NCBI RefSeq assembly: GCF_022227845.1
Contig: NZ_JAJNQN010000006.1
Coordinates: 62,001 to 126,000, forward strand
Origin: Ectothiorhodospira lacustris
Lineage (GTDB): Bacteria > Pseudomonadota > Gammaproteobacteria > Ectothiorhodospirales > Ectothiorhodospiraceae
Length of the DNA stretch: 64,000 nt
Direction: 5' to 3'
Shown: piece by piece, positions 3,200 through 10,685 of the stretch
How positions within the stretch are numbered: the stretch's first letter is position 1
Layout: each line of letters starts with the position of its first letter
Program-made: the position numbers and the translations under genes
Notes under the pieces: model-generated
Database searches by the model: none
Seen by the model: only the letters and a program-made list of their open reading frames with translations
What the model was told of the DNA's origin: nothing

Positions 3200-4672
3200 A
3201 TGTCGGATCACGTCCTGCTCATCGAGCAGCCCGGGGACTGGAAGCCCCATTTCCCCGAATACCCCGTGGTGGTGGCTGAGGACTACCTCACCAATCCCAG
3301 GTATTCCAGTCATACCCGTCTGCGGGTCATCAACCTGTGCCGCAGTCACCGTTACCTGAGCGAAGGCTATTACTGCTCTCTGCTGGCGGAAGCCCGTCAG
3401 CACAAGGTGGTGCCCACGGTGCGTACCCTGCAGGACCTGTCCAGAAAATCCATCTACAGCCTGGATACCGAGGACATCGACCGCAAGGTGGCCCGGGTGC
3501 TGGGGCGCAAGCGTGCCGGCCTGCAGCCCACCGCCTTCGAGATCACGGTCTTCTTCGGCCAGTGCGCCCCCAAGGAAATGCACGAGATCGGCCAGCAGCT
3601 GTTCTCCATCTTTCGGGCGCCCATGTTCAAGGTGGAATTCAGGCTGGTCGGTCAGTGGCGCATCGAAGCCATCAAGCCCCTGGCCCTGAACAGCCTGACC
3701 CCGGAGCAGGAAACGGCCTTCTTCGAGGCTCTGGACCATTATCTCAAGCGTCCCTGGCGCAAGCCGCGGGGGCCGCGAAACTTCAAGTATGACCTGGCCA
3801 TCCTGCAGAACCCGGACGAGGATCTGCCGCCGTCCAATCGGGCGGCGCTGAACCAGTTCGTTCGCCAGGGCAAGGCCCTGGGGCTGGAGGTGGACCTGAT
3901 CGACCGCAAGGATTTCGGCCGTCTGGCCGAGTTCGATGCCCTGCTCATCCGCGAGACGACCCGGATCGACCATTACACCTACCGTTTTGCCCGCAAGGCG
4001 GACAGCGAGGGGATGGTGGTGATCGATGATCCGGATTCCATTCTCAAGTGCACCAACAAGGTCTATCTGGCGGAACTGCTGGCGGGACAGAAGGTGCCCA
4101 CGCCTAAGACGCTGATCCTGCGCAAGGAGAACATCCTGGCGGCCGAGGAGGTGATCGGCTATCCGGTGGTGCTGAAAATCCCCGATGGTTCCTTTTCCCG
4201 GGGGGTGTTCAAGGCGGAGGACCGGGCGGCGCTGGAAGAGATCAGCAAACGTCTGTTCAAGGAGTCGGATCTGATCCTGGCCCAGGAATTCGTCTACACG
4301 GAATTTGACTGGCGAGTGGGGATTCTGAACAAGCAGCCCCTGTACGTGTGCCAGTACCTGATGTCCAAGAAACACTGGCAGATCGTCAACCACCAGGCCA
4401 AGGGCAGCCTGCGCCAAGGTGGATTCCGCACCCTGCCGGTGGATCAGGCCCCCCCCTTGGTGGTGAAGACGGCCCTCAAGGCTGCCAACCTGATCGGTGA
4501 CGGCCTGTACGGCGTGGATCTCAAGCAGACCGAGCGCGGCGTCATGGTGATCGAGGTGAATGATAATCCCAATCTGGATGCGGGCGTGGAAGACGAGGTA
4601 CTCAAGGAGGGACTGTATCAGGCCATCATGAAGGACTTTGTACGGCGTCTGGATCTGATGCGCAGGCGTTGA
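3200..4672 (+). CDS. RimK-like ATP-grasp ligase with N-terminal RLAN domain
   Basis: This 490-residue protein is far longer than ordinary RimK (about 300 residues). The first roughly 190 residues form the RimK-like ATP-grasp N-terminal (RLAN) region. Residues about 200-485 are an ATP-grasp ligase, with KCTNKVYLAELL, the ATP-binding strand AQEFVYTEFDWRVGIL and the Mg-binding motif VIEVNDNPNLDAG. Such enzymes form an amide bond between a carboxylate and an amino acid via an acylphosphate. An AAAAGGAG box (3181-3188) precedes the ATG. It is cotranscribed with the GNAT/peptidase gene; the acceptor is unknown. It is distinct from the classical RimK encoded at 20.6 kb. Confidence 0.85.
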   Translation: MSDHVLLIEQPGDWKPHFPEYPVVVAEDYLTNPRYSSHTRLRVINLCRSHRYLSEGYYCSLLAEARQHKVVPTVRTLQDLSRKSIYSLDTEDIDRKVARVLGRKRAGLQPTAFEITVFFGQCAPKEMHEIGQQLFSIFRAPMFKVEFRLVGQWRIEAIKPLALNSLTPEQETAFFEALDHYLKRPWRKPRGPRNFKYDLAILQNPDEDLPPSNRAALNQFVRQGKALGLEVDLIDRKDFGRLAEFDALLIRETTRIDHYTYRFARKADSEGMVVIDDPDSILKCTNKVYLAELLAGQKVPTPKTLILRKENILAAEEVIGYPVVLKIPDGSFSRGVFKAEDRAALEEISKRLFKESDLILAQEFVYTEFDWRVGILNKQPLYVCQYLMSKKHWQIVNHQAKGSLRQGGFRTLPVDQAPPLVVKTALKAANLIGDGLYGVDLKQTERGVMVIEVNDNPNLDAGVEDEVLKEGLYQAIMKDFVRRLDLMRRR

Positions 4673-4681
4673 TGTATCACG

Positions 4682-4775
4682 GCTGTTACACCCGGCCCGA
4701 GGTTGCTGAAAGTCGCTTGGGTAAAGGTGCGTACTTGATCTTCACGGCACTGAAGGCGGGGCGGGGTGTAACAGC
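4682..4775. promoter_or_regulatory. 12-bp inverted repeat, candidate enhancer sites of the sigma-54 activator
   Basis: GCTGTTACACCC at 4682-4693 is matched exactly by its reverse complement GGGTGTAACAGC at 4764-4775, with 70 bp between. Each arm holds a TGT-N-ACA core. The arms lie about 95-190 bp upstream of the -24/-12 element at 4871, the usual distance for enhancer-binding proteins. A related CGTGTGACAG lies at 10721-10730 in front of the activator gene. The repeat is read directly; its role is inferred. Confidence 0.5.
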
Positions 4776-4870
4776 ATAGATACAGTTTTGGCGGGGTAAA
4801 TCGGCACTATCCCGCAAAAATATGGGCGGCCTATTCTTAAGTATCTATTAATACTGGTTTTTTCCTTTGC

Positions 4871-4886
4871 TGGCTCGGTCCTTGCT
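4871..4886 (+). promoter_or_regulatory. sigma-54 (-24/-12) promoter of the amyloid-like operon
   Basis: TGGCTCGGTCCTTGCT matches the RpoN consensus TGGCAC-N5-TTGCW at all but one core position, with exactly 10 nt between the invariant GG and GC. Transcription would start near 4898, giving a leader of about 60 nt before the ATG at 4962. A sigma-54 activator gene lies in the same locus (9300-10685). Confidence 0.75.
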
Positions 4887-4961
4887 CAATGAGCCCTCGG
4901 GTACGGCAGGTCGTATGCACCTGCATATCCGAACCTGGCCCATGTGAGGAGGAACGATTTC

Positions 4962-6473
4962 ATGATGACTTTCAAGAAGACTGCGATTTCAGCCGCTGTT
5001 GCCCTGGCATTCGGCCTTTCCGGCGCTGCATGGGCGGATGTTGGTAATCCCGGTGACGGTGATGGCGACAGAAGCGCACAGGGTGCTTATGATTCCTTCA
5101 ACGCCACTGCCGCGGATTCCTTCAACAATACGGCATCGGACTCCGGCAACAACAGCTGGACCGACTCTGCCAACGACAATTCCGATAACAGCCTGAACAC
5201 GAGCATTGCCGATTCCGGCAATACCCAGGCGGACAACAACTCCGATAACAGCCTGAACACGAACATCGCCGATTCCGGCAATACCCAGGCGGACAACAAC
5301 TCCGATAACAGCCTGAACACGAGCATTGCCGATTCCGGCAATACCCAGGCGGACAACAACTCCGATAACAGCCTGAACACGAGCATTGCCGATTCCGGCA
5401 ATACCCAGGCGGACAACAACTCCGACAACAGCCTGAACACGAACATCGCCGACTCCGGCAACAACATGTCGGACAATTCGAACAATTCGGATAATTCCAA
5501 TAACTCCGACAACAGCCTGAATACAAGCATTGCCGACTCGGGCAACAGCCAGGCGGACAACAACTCCGACAACAGCACCAACACCACTATTGCCGACTCG
5601 GGCAATAACCAGTCGGACAACAGCCTCAATACGAGCATTGCCGACTCCGGCAACAGCCAGGCCGACAACAGCACCAATACCAGCATTGCCGATTCCGGTA
5701 ATAACCAGTCGGATAACAGCATCAATACGAGCATTGCCGACTCGGGCAACAGCCAGGCGGACAACAACTCCGACAACAGCACCAACACCAGCATTGCCGA
5801 TTCTGGCAATAATCAGTCGGATAACAGTATCAACACCAGCATTGCCGACTCGGGCAACAGCCAGGCGGATAACAACTCCGACAACAGCACCAATACCAGC
5901 ATCGCTGATTCCGGCAATGACCAGTCGGACAACAGTATCAATACCAGCATCGCCGATTCCGGCAATGATCAGTCGGACAACAGCATCAATACCAGCATTG
6001 CCGATTCCGGTAATGATCAGTCGGATAACAGTGTGAACGGCTCATTCAATATCTCCGACTCCGGTAATGATCAATCGGATAATTCCGATAATTCCGATAA
6101 CAGCATCAATGACTCCTTCAATACGAACATTGCCGACTCGGGCAATAACTCGTCGGATAATTCCAATAACTCCGATAACAGTGTCGTGACTACGACGACC
6201 ATCGATAACAGCGTGGCTGACTCTTTCAATGTCAACATTGCTTCCATGGTGGTGTCTGAAAATGACCTGAGCGGTGCGGTGACGGATACCTATTTGTACA
6301 TTGAAGGGGAAGGCAGCTATAACTCTTCCAACATGATTGGGGACAGCGGATTCAGCAACTCCGCAGGTATCACCCAAGTGGCACAGAATGCCGGGACCAA
6401 CAGCTTGGTGCAGCAACAGGTGTCTGTCCAGGCTCACCTGGGTCTGCCGGGCGGGAATGGTGGCAGCAACTGA
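4962..6473 (+). CDS. secreted Asn/Asp/Ser-rich repeat protein, probable Fap-like amyloid subunit
   Basis: The 503-residue product starts with a signal peptide (MMTFKKTAISAAVALAFG..., cut after AWA). About 16 copies follow of a 15-20-residue unit centred on NTSIADSGN, separated by QADNNSDNS-type linkers (about 70-410). The C-terminal 90 residues are not repetitive and end in ITQVAQNAGTNSLVQQQVSV. Periodic Asn/Gln/Ser ladders of this kind occur in curlin and Fap subunits. A C39 peptidase and a FapF-like barrel are encoded alongside, so a FapB/FapC-type extracellular fibre subunit is the best reading. The units are shorter and more acidic than those of Pseudomonas FapC. ATG 4962 is chosen for the AGGAGGA box 8 nt upstream. 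An alternative is a non-amyloid beta-solenoid adhesin. Confidence 0.75.
   Translation: MMTFKKTAISAAVALAFGLSGAAWADVGNPGDGDGDRSAQGAYDSFNATAADSFNNTASDSGNNSWTDSANDNSDNSLNTSIADSGNTQADNNSDNSLNTNIADSGNTQADNNSDNSLNTSIADSGNTQADNNSDNSLNTSIADSGNTQADNNSDNSLNTNIADSGNNMSDNSNNSDNSNNSDNSLNTSIADSGNSQADNNSDNSTNTTIADSGNNQSDNSLNTSIADSGNSQADNSTNTSIADSGNNQSDNSINTSIADSGNSQADNNSDNSTNTSIADSGNNQSDNSINTSIADSGNSQADNNSDNSTNTSIADSGNDQSDNSINTSIADSGNDQSDNSINTSIADSGNDQSDNSVNGSFNISDSGNDQSDNSDNSDNSINDSFNTNIADSGNNSSDNSNNSDNSVVTTTTIDNSVADSFNVNIASMVVSENDLSGAVTDTYLYIEGEGSYNSSNMIGDSGFSNSAGITQVAQNAGTNSLVQQQVSVQAHLGLPGGNGGSN
5181..5460 (+). repeat. 60-bp tandem repeats inside the amyloid subunit gene
   Basis: Four contiguous 60-bp units (5181-5240, 5241-5300, 5301-5360, 5361-5420) plus a partial fifth. 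Units 1, 3 and 4 are identical; unit 2 differs at a few bases and changes NTS to NTN. Each encodes 20 residues, so copy-number change would keep the reading frame. More diverged 45-60-bp units continue to about 6180. Confidence 0.95.
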
Positions 6474-6578: not shown

Positions 6579-6938
6579 ATGTTCGGGTACGAAAAGTCAA
6601 GAGCAGTCCTTGCCGGCACCACCATGCTGCTGATGGTAGGAACGACCATGCTCCTACCTGTTCATGCAGATGATTTTGCTTTGCCCGTCGCGGTGGATGT
6701 GGACACTCTGGAGATGCAGAGGGCCAAACAAAATATATCGACCCTTCAGCTGAGTCATATGACTTCCAATGCGGGTCTTTCGAATACAACCATGGAGGGG
6801 GTATTTTCCAGCGGGGACAACGTCCTGAGTATGGGTGTATTGGAGCACGCTCAGGGTATCAATACGATCATTCAAAATACGGGACATAATGTCATCATCC
6901 AGGAGTCCCTGATACTGAATGTCAATGTTTCACCCTGA
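6579..6938 (+). CDS. small secreted protein of the Fap-like locus, minor subunit or chaperone candidate
   Basis: This 119-residue protein has a signal peptide (about 1-30, ending PVHADD). The mature part has no repeats but ends in GINTIIQNTGHNVIIQESLI, the same Gln-Asn pattern as the C-terminus of the large repeat subunit (VAQNAGTNSLVQQQ) and the protein at 7664-8158 (WATVIQNTLNEQMIV). That shared segment suggests it enters or caps the same fibre, like FapA, FapB or FapE, but I cannot assign it to one of these. TGGAGG lies 9 nt before the ATG. Its last 20 bp overlap the peptidase gene, which implies translational coupling. Confidence 0.65.
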   Translation: MFGYEKSRAVLAGTTMLLMVGTTMLLPVHADDFALPVAVDVDTLEMQRAKQNISTLQLSHMTSNAGLSNTTMEGVFSSGDNVLSMGVLEHAQGINTIIQNTGHNVIIQESLILNVNVSP

Positions 6939-7650
6939 TGCCGTGATGGCGAGGCTATTTGTCGTGGGCATGCTGGTCGGTGCTGTCATGCTGACCCTGC
7001 CCGCCGGTTTGCAGGCATCCGGGGTGGTGCATGTTCCGGGTCTTGTGGGCAGCCATGAGGTGGGCGTGACCAGCCTGCAGGCGATGCGCTTCAAGACGGT
7101 GATCCGTCAGCGCTATGACTTCAGTTGCGGATCCGCGGCACTGGCAACCTTGCTGACCTATCATTACGGACGGCCTGTTTCGGAACAGGATACCTTCAAT
7201 GCCATGTTCGAAATGGGAGACCAGGAACGGATCAGGATGCAGGGTTTTTCCATGCTGGACATGAAGCGCTATCTGCAGACACGACAGGGGCTGGGGTCGG
7301 ACGGGTTTCGTCTCCCCCTGGAAAAGCTGGATGAGTTGGGTGTGCCGGCCATCGCCCTGGTGGATATTGACGGGTATCGGCACTTTGTTGTGATAAAGGG
7401 GATTCGTGACGGCCGTGTATTGCTGGGGGACCCGGCCTTGGGTGTTCGGGATTACTCCGTGGCCGGATTCAAGGATATCTGGAGCAACGATATCCTGTTC
7501 CTGATCCGTGACGAGGTCAGCCGTGGTCGTGAGCATTTCAATGCGCCGGTGGCTTGGGATGCGCTGACGAAACCACCCTACGGGACGGCACTGGCACGCG
7601 ATGGGCTGTCCAATTTCATACTGTCCCTGCCCAGGGCTTCCGACTGGTAG
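6919..7650 (+). CDS. fapD: exported C39-family cysteine peptidase, FapD-like
   Basis: This 243-residue protein has an N-terminal signal or anchor segment (LFVVGMLVGAVMLTLPAG) and a papain-like C39 domain with Cys70 (DFSCGSAA), His155 (YRHFVVIKG) and Asp171 (LLGDPALG). Stand-alone periplasmic C39 peptidases of this size are typical of Fap loci, where FapD is needed for amyloid export or processing. Its place between two small secreted proteins and downstream of the repeat subunit supports that role. It overlaps the upstream gene by 20 bp; starts at 6925 and 6946 are also possible. It is unlike bacteriocin-export C39 domains because it lacks the ABC transporter part. Confidence 0.8.
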   Translation: MSMFHPDAVMARLFVVGMLVGAVMLTLPAGLQASGVVHVPGLVGSHEVGVTSLQAMRFKTVIRQRYDFSCGSAALATLLTYHYGRPVSEQDTFNAMFEMGDQERIRMQGFSMLDMKRYLQTRQGLGSDGFRLPLEKLDELGVPAIALVDIDGYRHFVVIKGIRDGRVLLGDPALGVRDYSVAGFKDIWSNDILFLIRDEVSRGREHFNAPVAWDALTKPPYGTALARDGLSNFILSLPRASDW

Positions 7651-7663
7651 TTGAGGAGGGCAT

Positions 7664-8158
7664 ATGGGTGACGTGCTGCATGGCATGGTTCGAAGGATGG
7701 CCGTCTTTCTGTGGGTGGCGGCAACACCGTTTGCCTCGTCCAAGGCGGACCCCTCCTTCCTGGAGTCCCTGGAATGGGCGCGGGTGCCGGATGCTGAACT
7801 GGCAGAGCAGCGCGGGGGGCTGGTGCGGCGAGGTGGTTTCGAGCTGACGCTGGGCCTGGAGCGCATCACCGCCATCAATGGTGAGGTGATGGCCCACACC
7901 GTCCTGCTTGACTCGGCCGGTACGCGCGTGGGCCTGGAGGCTTTGGGTGGCCTCCACGTCATGACCGGGTTGGACGGCATGCGGATCGAGCAGCTTTCCG
8001 GGGCCGGGTGGGCCACCGTCATTCAGAACACGCTGAATGAGCAGATGATCGTCAACCACACCATCATGAATATCGGTCTGGCCGGCCTGGACCTGTCCCG
8101 GATGGAACTACAGCGTGTCATGGATGCGGGCCTGATCCAGGGATTGCGCAGCTACTGA
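7664..8158 (+). CDS. secreted accessory protein of the Fap-like locus, FapE-like candidate
   Basis: The 164-residue product has an N-terminal hydrophobic segment (MAVFLWVAATPFASS) that reads as a signal peptide. I see no named domain. The centre (GFELTLGLERITAINGEV...) and the segment WATVIQNTLNEQMIVNHT recall the Gln/Asn strands of the other two secreted proteins of the locus. A strong GAGGAGGG box precedes the ATG, 13 bp after the peptidase stop, so it is the last gene of the plus-strand operon. It converges with fapF 21 bp later. A FapE-like minor component is an inference from position, length and the shared segment. Confidence 0.6.
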   Translation: MGDVLHGMVRRMAVFLWVAATPFASSKADPSFLESLEWARVPDAELAEQRGGLVRRGGFELTLGLERITAINGEVMAHTVLLDSAGTRVGLEALGGLHVMTGLDGMRIEQLSGAGWATVIQNTLNEQMIVNHTIMNIGLAGLDLSRMELQRVMDAGLIQGLRSY

Positions 8159-8179: not shown

Positions 8180-9241
8180 TCAGAATCTGATTGGAAAACG
8201 CAGGGACACCTGCGCATCCGGTGCTGCGGAGGTGGCACCGATACCGACGGAGAAGTTCATGCTGGTTCGGTCCGACAGGCGGTGGGACAGGCCCCATAGA
8301 AAGGTTCCCACCTGCACGCGGTCAAAGGTCGGATTGAGAGGGTCTCCTAATTCGCGCTTGGTTTTGAACACGATGCTGTGGTCATAGCCGAAACTCAAGG
8401 AAGTTCGATTGTTCAGGGCAAATCCGGTCCCCAGGCTGAAGCCCAGGGCATTACCCGGGTCGATCTTGCCTTGGTCATTGCCCACGTCCCTTTCCAGGTT
8501 CCACACATAGCTGATGTTGCCGTAGATCACGGCGGGGTCTGTGGAGTAAATGACCGTGAGGCTGGGCTGTACCGCCCAAAACCCTGAGCCGGTAGGCTGT
8601 TCAAGGAAGATATCAACGCCAGGGATTTCTTCTCCGGTACTGTCTTTTGCCGGCACCCGGTCCACCTCAAAAGGTGAGGTTCCCGTGGTGCTTTTGACGC
8701 GCAGATTGCCGATAAAGAAAGGCTTCCCGGTGACTGCGCGATTGAACTGATAATGTAAACCCAGTTCAATATCGCCAAGTCCCATGCCATCGGACCCTGT
8801 GACCTGGTCCGCGGGTGTCCCCACCAGAATCTCCCGGCGTCGCAAGGACTCATCCCGCCAGACGTAGGGAATCCGCAAGCCCACTTCCACCCGGTCGGTC
8901 AGGCCATACCGCAGGGCGATGGCCGCCGTGAGGGTGTCCCTTTGCACCTCGCTGACGTCGATGAGCCCGATGGCGATGGCCGGCAGGATGGTGAAGCCGT
9001 CGATGGCCACGGTGGTGGATGAACTGTGGATGTACTGTAATGAGGGTTCCACCACCCACTTGCCCTTTGGGGTGAGCAGTCCACGCTCTTCGAAGACCGC
9101 TGCCACATCGGCCTGCCGCTGATCCTCGGGGGGGCGTTCCCCCACGACTTCCGGGGTCTGCGCCCAGGCCGGGGATGAGGCCAGGTAGATGGAAAGGATG
9201 GAGCCGGTTGCGAAAAATACGAATTTCCCAGACTGTGACAT
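8180..9241 (-). CDS. fapF: outer-membrane beta-barrel, FapF-like amyloid secretion pore
   Basis: This 353-residue protein has a signal peptide (cut after SPAWA), a short polar stretch (PPEDQRQADVAAVFEERGLLTPKG) and about 290 residues of alternating amphipathic strands that end in Phe (LRFPIRF), the outer-membrane insertion signal. The segment WVVEPSLQYIHSS...FTILPAIAIGLIDV is the hallmark of the FapF family, whose trimeric barrels release amyloid subunits. It is the only gene of the locus on the minus strand and probably follows the activator gene, whose stop lies 58 bp upstream. A 14-bp palindrome, CTGAAACGTTTCAG (9290-9303), spans that stop. A generic phenol-degradation-type porin is the alternative. 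Confidence 0.8.
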   Translation of the reverse strand: MSQSGKFVFFATGSILSIYLASSPAWAQTPEVVGERPPEDQRQADVAAVFEERGLLTPKGKWVVEPSLQYIHSSSTTVAIDGFTILPAIAIGLIDVSEVQRDTLTAAIALRYGLTDRVEVGLRIPYVWRDESLRRREILVGTPADQVTGSDGMGLGDIELGLHYQFNRAVTGKPFFIGNLRVKSTTGTSPFEVDRVPAKDSTGEEIPGVDIFLEQPTGSGFWAVQPSLTVIYSTDPAVIYGNISYVWNLERDVGNDQGKIDPGNALGFSLGTGFALNNRTSLSFGYDHSIVFKTKRELGDPLNPTFDRVQVGTFLWGLSHRLSDRTSMNFSVGIGATSAAPDAQVSLRFPIRF

Positions 9242-9299: not shown

Positions 9300-10685
9300 T
9301 CAGGGATTGCTGGACACGGACTGCCGCGTGGGTTCTTGCCCCGATAACGGGATGTCATGGCGGCGGGCCAGTCGGTACAACGTGATGCGCGAGACGTCGA
9401 GCCGACGTGCGGCGGCGGAGACATTCCCTTCGCAGAGTTGCAGGGCATCCAGGATGGCCTGGCGTTCGGCATCCGCGCGGATGGTCTCCAGGCTGGCGTG
9501 TTTGCTCTCGGCGACCAGGACATCCTCCAGTCCCAGGTCCACCGGCTGGATGTAGCGATGTTCGCACAGTACCAGCGCTCGCCGTACCCGGTTGATCAGT
9601 TCGCGGACATTGCCCGGCCAGCGATGGTCACGAATGGCCTCCATGGCGGCCGGGCTGAACCCCTTGACCGGGGTGGTCCGATCAGTGGAAAACTTGCGGA
9701 AGAAATGCCTGGCCAGCAAGACCGAGTCGCAGCCCCGCTCCCGGAGTGGGGGCATCTCGAAGCGGAGGACATCCAGTCGGTAGTAGAGGTCTTCCCGAAA
9801 GCGTCCCGAATGGACCGCGGCTTCCAGGTCCACATGGGTGGCGGCGACCACCCGGACATCAACCTTTTCCTCATGATCGCTGCCCACCTTCTGGACCGTC
9901 TGGTTCTGCAGGAATCGCAGCAGGGCTGCCTGGACTTCCAGCGGTAGGTCGCCGATCTCATCAAGAAACAATGTGCCGCCGTTGGCCGCCTGAACCCGGC
10001 CTGCCCGGGCCTTGTGGGCCCCGGTGAAGGCCCCGCGCTCGTGGCCGAAGAGTTCGGACTGGATCAGGGAGGCGGGGACGGCGGCGCAGTTGATGGCCTC
10101 AAAGGGGCCGTCGGCCCGCGGGGACTGGTCATGGACCGCCTTGGCGGCCACTTCCTTGCCGGTGCCGCTTTCTCCGGTGATGAGTACCGGGGCGCTCACC
10201 CGGGCCACCTTTTCAATGGTACGCATCACCTGGATCATGGACGGGTTTTCCCCGATCAGGGGGCTGTCCCGAAGCTTCACGGGGAGAATGGGGGTCGTGT
10301 GGAGCAGTTGCGCCATCCCCGAGGCATGGCCGAGCACCACTTTCAGGCGATAGGGATCAATGGGCAGGGAGTGAAAGTCGTGGCAGCAATGGCGAAGCAA
10401 CTCTCTGATCCGGTTGTCCCACAGCAGAGAGGGTTCCACCAGGGCCACCCATTCGGTGTCGCGGTGCCGGCGCAAAAAGGCTTCCAGGTTCGGCAGGGTG
10501 TTCAGGGTGGGCGGCTGCAGCAGGAAGGCGCCGACCGGCACGGGGTTCTGGCGCAGGAACGCCTCGGCTTCGGCCAGGGTTGTAGCCGCAAGCACATGCC
10601 AGTTGCTGCCCAGCGGCGGTGGGCTGGGTGCCTGGGAAAAGTCGATCCAAAGTAGCCGGTGATGGGAATCTCGGCCTGGGTCCAT
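9300..10685 (-). CDS. sigma-54-dependent activator with degenerate receiver, VpsR-like
   Basis: This 461-residue protein has three domains. Residues 1-120 are receiver-like, but the phosphoacceptor Asp is missing (the expected strand reads VGAFLLQ). Residues about 140-375 are an AAA+ domain with Walker A GESGTGKE, the sigma-54 contact loop GAFTGA (near 215), Walker B LFLDEIGDL and an arginine finger in FREDLYYRLDVL. A Fis-type helix-turn-helix follows (NVSAAARRLDVSRITLYRLA, about 420-440). Unphosphorylated relatives such as VpsR and FleQ respond to c-di-GMP and drive biofilm matrix genes. The sigma-54 promoter at 4871 is the obvious target. c-di-GMP binding is inferred, not visible. Confidence 0.9.
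   Translation of the reverse strand: MDPGRDSHHRLLWIDFSQAPSPPPLGSNWHVLAATTLAEAEAFLRQNPVPVGAFLLQPPTLNTLPNLEAFLRRHRDTEWVALVEPSLLWDNRIRELLRHCCHDFHSLPIDPYRLKVVLGHASGMAQLLHTTPILPVKLRDSPLIGENPSMIQVMRTIEKVARVSAPVLITGESGTGKEVAAKAVHDQSPRADGPFEAINCAAVPASLIQSELFGHERGAFTGAHKARAGRVQAANGGTLFLDEIGDLPLEVQAALLRFLQNQTVQKVGSDHEEKVDVRVVAATHVDLEAAVHSGRFREDLYYRLDVLRFEMPPLRERGCDSVLLARHFFRKFSTDRTTPVKGFSPAAMEAIRDHRWPGNVRELINRVRRALVLCEHRYIQPVDLGLEDVLVAESKHASLETIRADAERQAILDALQLCEGNVSAAARRLDVSRITLYRLARRHDIPLSGQEPTRQSVSSNP

Follow-up and report, generated by a model that had tools for sequence, protein, structure and literature searches.

In the literature that we found, Pseudomonas fluorescens PF07 is the one strain for which it has been worked out how a dedicated RpoN activator turns on fap-type amyloid genes. 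The fapA gene of this strain has an RpoN promoter, as located by 5' RACE, and deletion of either rpoN or brfA lowers fap expression; brfA is a reverse-strand gene that adjoins the fap cluster (PMC9207406). BrfA is reported to be a c-di-GMP sensor in another paper, which cites Guo et al. 2024 for this (PMC13101488). VpsR and BerB also bind c-di-GMP (PMC5552954).

Here we analyze a locus within a 64-kb stretch of DNA from the purple sulfur bacterium Ectothiorhodospira lacustris; the whole stretch is referred to as the window. We propose, with a probability of roughly 0.86, that a Fap-like amyloid operon is under RpoN-dependent control from positions 4673-4886, driven by a BrfA-like activator through two boxes. 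As read from the DNA, this proposal draws on the promoter and the two boxes, their conservation and near-constant spacing, their phasing in distant loci, and their link to the activator gene. A BrfA-like activator gene adjoins the fap genes at this locus. Since RpoN/BrfA control of fap has already been shown in P. fluorescens, the window is most fittingly regarded as a distant representative of that known circuit.

Gene content of the locus

The following genes are found downstream of the control region:

4962-6473, forward strand: putative major amyloid subunit with a signal peptide and DNS/SGN tandem repeats, FapC-like by position and composition
6579-6938, forward strand: orfB, small secreted protein and putative second subunit, kept in orthologous loci
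6919-7650, forward strand: FapD-like C39 peptidase (NF058616 FapD, E = 1.8e-41; FilB, E = 4.4e-40; Peptidase_C39)
7664-8158, forward strand: small protein in the FapE position
8180-9241, reverse strand: FapF-like outer-membrane channel (NF058560, E = 2.7e-47; solved FapF 5o67, E = 3e-34)
9300-10685, reverse strand: BrfA-like sigma-54 activator with a VpsR-type N-terminal domain, an AAA+ domain with GAFTGA, and a Fis-type helix-turn-helix (HTH)

By gene content, the locus encodes a putative Fap-like functional amyloid. The product of 4962-6473 is a secreted repeat protein rich in asparagine, serine, and aspartate that has no match in Pfam or NCBIfam; its start codon is most likely the ATG at 4962. 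The FapF-like gene lies 3' of the activator gene on the same strand. The FapD and FilB matches of the C39 peptidase both fall under the curated NCBIfam cut-offs, with 141.9 bits against the 330 required for the FapD equivalog, and the channel likewise reaches 161.5 of the 700 bits required for FapF. Judged by these scores, the FapD- and FapF-like proteins are clear but distant homologues. Because the family scores are so far under the curated cut-offs, we describe the locus as Fap-like rather than as canonical Fap.

The proteins ending at 6473, 6938, and 8158 share a C-terminal QN-containing motif (e.g. QNAGTNSLVQQ, QNTGHNVIIQE, and QNTLNEQMIVN). Its presence in the subunit, the second protein, and the FapE-position protein suggests related secretion or assembly signals.

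Promoter and palindromic boxes upstream of the subunit gene

The control region contains the following elements:

4673-4690, no strand: box 1, distal putative activator site, TGTATC-ACGGCT-GTTACA (TGT-N12-ACA), identified by alignment of orthologous loci
4682-4693, forward strand: arm 1 (inner half of box 1 plus CCC), identified by sequence and genome count
4764-4775, reverse strand: arm 2 (GGG plus inner half of box 2), identified by sequence and genome count
4767-4784, no strand: box 2, proximal putative activator site, TGTAAC-AGCATA-GATACA, recognisable in 16 of 16 loci
4871-4886, forward strand: sigma-54 promoter TGGCTCGGTCCTTGCT, in the same place in 16 of 16 loci, with a start predicted near 4897

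A preliminary description of this DNA had claimed a sigma-54 promoter with correct GG/GC spacing, and this was borne out. The -24/-12 site TGGCTCGGTCCTTGCT keeps the GG-N10-GC spacing and has one mismatch to the consensus TGGCACG-N4-TTGCW. Dinucleotide shuffling of the 295-bp region produced an equally good site once in 2000 trials. With scoring of both sigma-54 sites and boxes by simple hand-made consensus, the 64-kb window has no second sigma-54 site that scores at least 19. The subunit operon is expected to be transcribed from near 4897. Neither a sigma-70 promoter nor a terminator pattern was found in 4600-5000. The genome has a single copy of rpoN (PF04552 match, E = 5.8e-69), and the pattern of sigma-54 site plus boxes, as tested, occurs at one place in it, namely this region.

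Two exact 12-bp inverted arms had also been described upstream of the promoter, and they are indeed present as GCTGTTACACCC (4682-4693) and GGGTGTAACAGC (4764-4775). By chance, a 12-bp inverted repeat came up four times in 2000 dinucleotide-shuffled versions of the 295-bp region, and the arm sequence occurs twice in the 3.28-Mb genome, both times here. Alignment of orthologous loci places a different boundary on these elements: each arm is the inner half of one 18-bp palindrome. Box 1, which begins directly 3' of the stop codon of a RimK-like gene, holds most of arm 1; box 2 holds most of arm 2 and stands 94 bp from box 1 in the window. Complementarity between the arms is kept in a single relative (L025, 11 bp) and lost in 14 of the 16 loci. 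Given that arm identity survives in only that relative, the conserved unit, as judged from the alignment, is the pair of boxes and not the 12-bp inverted repeat. The earlier view of the repeat as the operator is corrected accordingly: what is conserved is two 18-bp palindromes. Two other assignments of the arms were rejected, namely as a conserved inverted repeat, which is absent from 14 of 16 loci, and as a terminator or sigma-70 promoter, neither pattern being present in 4600-5000.

A stricter palindrome, TGTWTC-N6-GAWACA with at most one mismatch, occurs at 10 places in the genome, including the two boxes; only one of these places matches it perfectly, and that one falls within a coding frame. 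A limited literature search found no report of the box sequence, which is no proof of its novelty. The operator may have been published already in the 2024 paper on BrfA (Guo et al. 2024, Microbiol Res 287:127864).

Conservation in orthologous loci

The orthologous set comprised the window and 15 fetched loci, eight of the 16 being from Ectothiorhodospira and eight from Thioalkalivibrio. Every one of the 16 has the sigma-54 site, roughly 90-110 bp 5' of the subunit start. The distance from this site to box 2 is 103-104 bp in each of the eight Ectothiorhodospira loci and 82-83 bp in each of the eight from Thioalkalivibrio, where it is thus two helical turns shorter. Box 1 is clear in 15 loci and weak in the remaining one (L036), and the boxes are 89-94 bp apart across the set. 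In 15 of the 16 loci, the score of the box pair was matched by between none and at most two of 200 shuffles. The RimK-like upstream gene is missing from five Ectothiorhodospira loci that retain the boxes, and the boxes are therefore not coding relics. The retention of promoter and box pair throughout the 16 loci supports the earlier suggestion of an RpoN promoter with upstream activator sites.

The activator

The preliminary description had also placed a sigma-54 activator with a GAFTGA loop in the same locus, 4.4 kb away, and we confirmed one at 9300-10685 on the reverse strand, with its gene at that distance from the promoter. It has the features of an enhancer-binding protein of the NtrC family, namely an AAA+ sigma-54 interaction domain, the GAFTGA motif, and a Fis-type HTH. 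Its N-terminal domain scores above the gathering threshold for the VpsR N-terminal family (PF20161, E = 8.2e-13) and matched the VpsR structure by sequence; the same type of domain occurs in 25 of the 30 fap-linked activators. Fap-linked activators share the conserved recognition helix NVSxAARxLxVSRVTLYRL, and in a tree most of them are set apart from the other sigma-54 activators of the genome with weak-to-moderate support (SH-aLRT 87).

Upstream of the activator gene itself, weak sigma-54-like matches occur in six of eight Ectothiorhodospira loci (at about 10763-10748 on the reverse strand in the window), with a conserved AATCGTCRAAATTNTTTACA-like element nearby. These elements could possibly control the activator. 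No conserved box was found upstream of the activator gene in the eight Ectothiorhodospira loci. In three Thioalkalivibrio loci (L034, L035, L037), TGTCTC-N6-GAGACG-like sites lie 5' of the activator gene, near 2130-2420.

Survey of amyloid loci

Gammaproteobacteria were sampled for Fap and Fap-like loci, which were present in 35 of 369 genomes. A second sampling, by FapD, covered named genomes, among them those of Alpha- and Betaproteobacteria and of relatives of Geobacter. In each locus, the 300-bp stretch that precedes the best sigma-54 site was scanned for TGT-Nk-ACA at every k from 4 through 20; the site taken was the best-scoring one and not always proved to be the promoter of the operon. 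The 60 loci with an activator gene hold 51 TGT-N12-ACA sites, spread over 38 of these loci, and every other k gives 0-11 sites. When the family of the window was left out, the remaining 48 loci had 40 such sites, spread over 29 loci, and other spacers gave 0-10; the other 19 of these distant loci have no exact TGT-N12-ACA upstream of the top sigma-54 site. Over whole surveyed loci, k = 12 is just mildly above other spacers (370 vs 137-286), and its excess is therefore local to promoters. The pooled consensus of the boxes is TGTWWCR-N4-YGWWACA. In 11 of 14 further canonical fap loci with a nearby activator gene, a box is located 153-166 bp from the sigma-54 site; the activator gene in these 14 is mostly convergent to fapF, like brfA.

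Distances from box to promoter are phased at about 10.5 bp among 36 clades that were collapsed by hand and are not fully independent, as is also true of distances in related lineages (Rayleigh p about 2e-4). The best-scoring promoter-box pair was taken for each locus, a choice blind to phase, and 18 of 5000 runs of a jitter null matched the phasing. Such a periodicity is as expected for an activator that has to approach the polymerase from a fixed face of the DNA helix. Enrichment of the box core in distant activator-carrying amyloid loci supports the tie of the system to RpoN that had been suggested at the outset, and RpoN/BrfA control of fap in P. fluorescens gives it further backing (PMC9207406).

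Some other loci are also of note. Fap-like FapD loci were found in Alphaproteobacteria (L128, L129, L133, L137, L140, L159, L161, L168, L170), with hosts such as Telmatospirillum, Kiloniellaceae, Pelagibius, and Brevundimonas; this class is not listed in the 2013 survey of Fap (PMC3792158). Two Ectothiorhodospira genomes carry a second, more distant FapD/FapF pair of 34-38% identity without a nearby activator gene (L040 in G001, L041 in G009). A further locus (L044; G000 contig C12, around 184912) encodes a protein of 624 aa whose N-terminus is P-loop-like and whose C-terminus is like that of cytidine/dCMP deaminases; by eye, its sequence resembles those of the anti-phage dCTP deaminases.

Regulatory model and alternatives

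In the proposed mechanism, the BrfA-like activator (9300-10685) would bind and assemble on the two TGT-N12-ACA palindromic enhancer sites, 94 bp apart, and would contact RNA polymerase-sigma-54 at 4871-4886 through DNA looping. By spending ATP via its GAFTGA loop, it would open the promoter near 4897 and switch on the subunit and FapD/FapE-like genes for matrix formation. Binding to the boxes, looping, and the direction of regulation are predicted here from the arrangement of sites and genes.

It is highly improbable that the 12-bp arms are themselves the functional unit, be it as one long operator, as a cruciform, or as an RNA hairpin or terminator between the RimK-like and subunit genes. Their exactness and rarity speak for the arms, as does the folding of the single strand, which is better than that of its shuffles (z -5.1), but a repeat of 11-12 bp is confined to the window and L025, the other 14 loci keep two TGT-N12-ACA-type sites, and 4600-5000 has no terminator pattern. 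Another explanation would retain the RpoN-dependent promoter and have the boxes bound by a different enhancer-binding protein, for example a PrsR-like paralogue. TGT/ACA dyads are common targets of Fis-type HTH proteins, which often bind them (e.g. NifA, TyrR), and the genome holds 15 matches to the activator, itself included. However, box enrichment tracks loci that carry this particular activator gene, the recognition helix of the activator is conserved together with the boxes, and the neighbouring BrfA is the one required in P. fluorescens (PMC9207406). We thus consider a different binder very unlikely and retain the BrfA-like activator.

As for the signal, control of the locus by c-di-GMP, which the preliminary description had raised as a possibility, is plausible by analogy with BrfA, VpsR, and BerB, and these analogies give c-di-GMP slightly better than even odds of being what activates the system. 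Alternatively, and with rather less than even odds, the sites might work as described and respond to something else, either a different cue sensed by the VpsR-type domain or the expression level of the activator itself. The residues that bind c-di-GMP in FleQ (R144, R185, N186, E330, R334) align with S141, K182, A183, H327, and K331, the first pairing lying just beyond the printed alignment with no gap assumed, and this replacement favors a different signal. A FleQ-type c-di-GMP site in the activator was rejected, none of the five residues being conserved. Against a different signal stand the reported sensing of c-di-GMP by BrfA (PMC13101488) and the binding of c-di-GMP by VpsR, whose type of domain most fap-linked activators carry, and by the RpoN activator BerB (PMC5552954). 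The genome also contains about 60 GGDEF matches; the cell therefore probably uses c-di-GMP, and the count says no more than that.

Comparison with known systems

We think it fairly probable that amyloid operons share an ancient cis-regulatory code, made up of TGT-N12-ACA boxes that are helically phased with a sigma-54 promoter and read by BrfA-like activators dedicated to these operons in Gamma-, Beta-, and Alphaproteobacteria and in Geobacter/delta-type bacteria. If so, amyloid matrix loci and their regulation would be predictable from sequence alone. The analysis adds a concrete candidate operator for the activator, its recurrence at distant amyloid loci, and a face-of-the-helix rule for its distance to the promoter; the operator and the rule make the mechanism directly testable. 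The same promoter-box arrangement before amyloid operons across Proteobacteria would extend the Pseudomonas biofilm switch. It also provides a signature for finding regulated amyloid operons, including the Alphaproteobacterial ones absent from the 2013 survey (PMC3792158).

The activator resembles several regulators of biofilm formation. Like FleQ of Pseudomonas aeruginosa, it is an AAA+ activator of the NtrC family tied to biofilm genes, although it does not keep the c-di-GMP residues of FleQ. BerB of Burkholderia cenocepacia is likewise an RpoN-dependent enhancer-binding protein with GAFTGA that acts on biofilm matrix, and it binds c-di-GMP. It differs in that its targets are berA and exopolysaccharide and its N-terminal sensory domain is reported absent; no binding motif is found in the available text of its paper (PMC5552954). 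With VpsR of Vibrio cholerae (7v2b, 7y19), which controls biofilm matrix, the activator shares the N-terminal VpsR domain (PF20161). VpsR acts without RpoN, according to the same source (PMC5552954), whereas the activator here contains GAFTGA and its presumed target is preceded by a conserved sigma-54 promoter; these two features argue against its acting independently of RpoN.

The closest counterpart is the BrfA circuit, from which the window differs in four respects: no fapA is recognised in the subunit operon, the equivalog cut-offs are not reached by the FapD- and FapF-like proteins, the activator gene is directly 5' of the fapF-like gene and shares its strand, and there are two boxes 94 bp apart. 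The TGT-N12-ACA box is also found in canonical fap loci of similar arrangement, P. fluorescens not being among the genomes examined by name. Both systems have a sigma-54 promoter before the amyloid operon and a dedicated Fis-family enhancer-binding protein encoded beside the fap genes.
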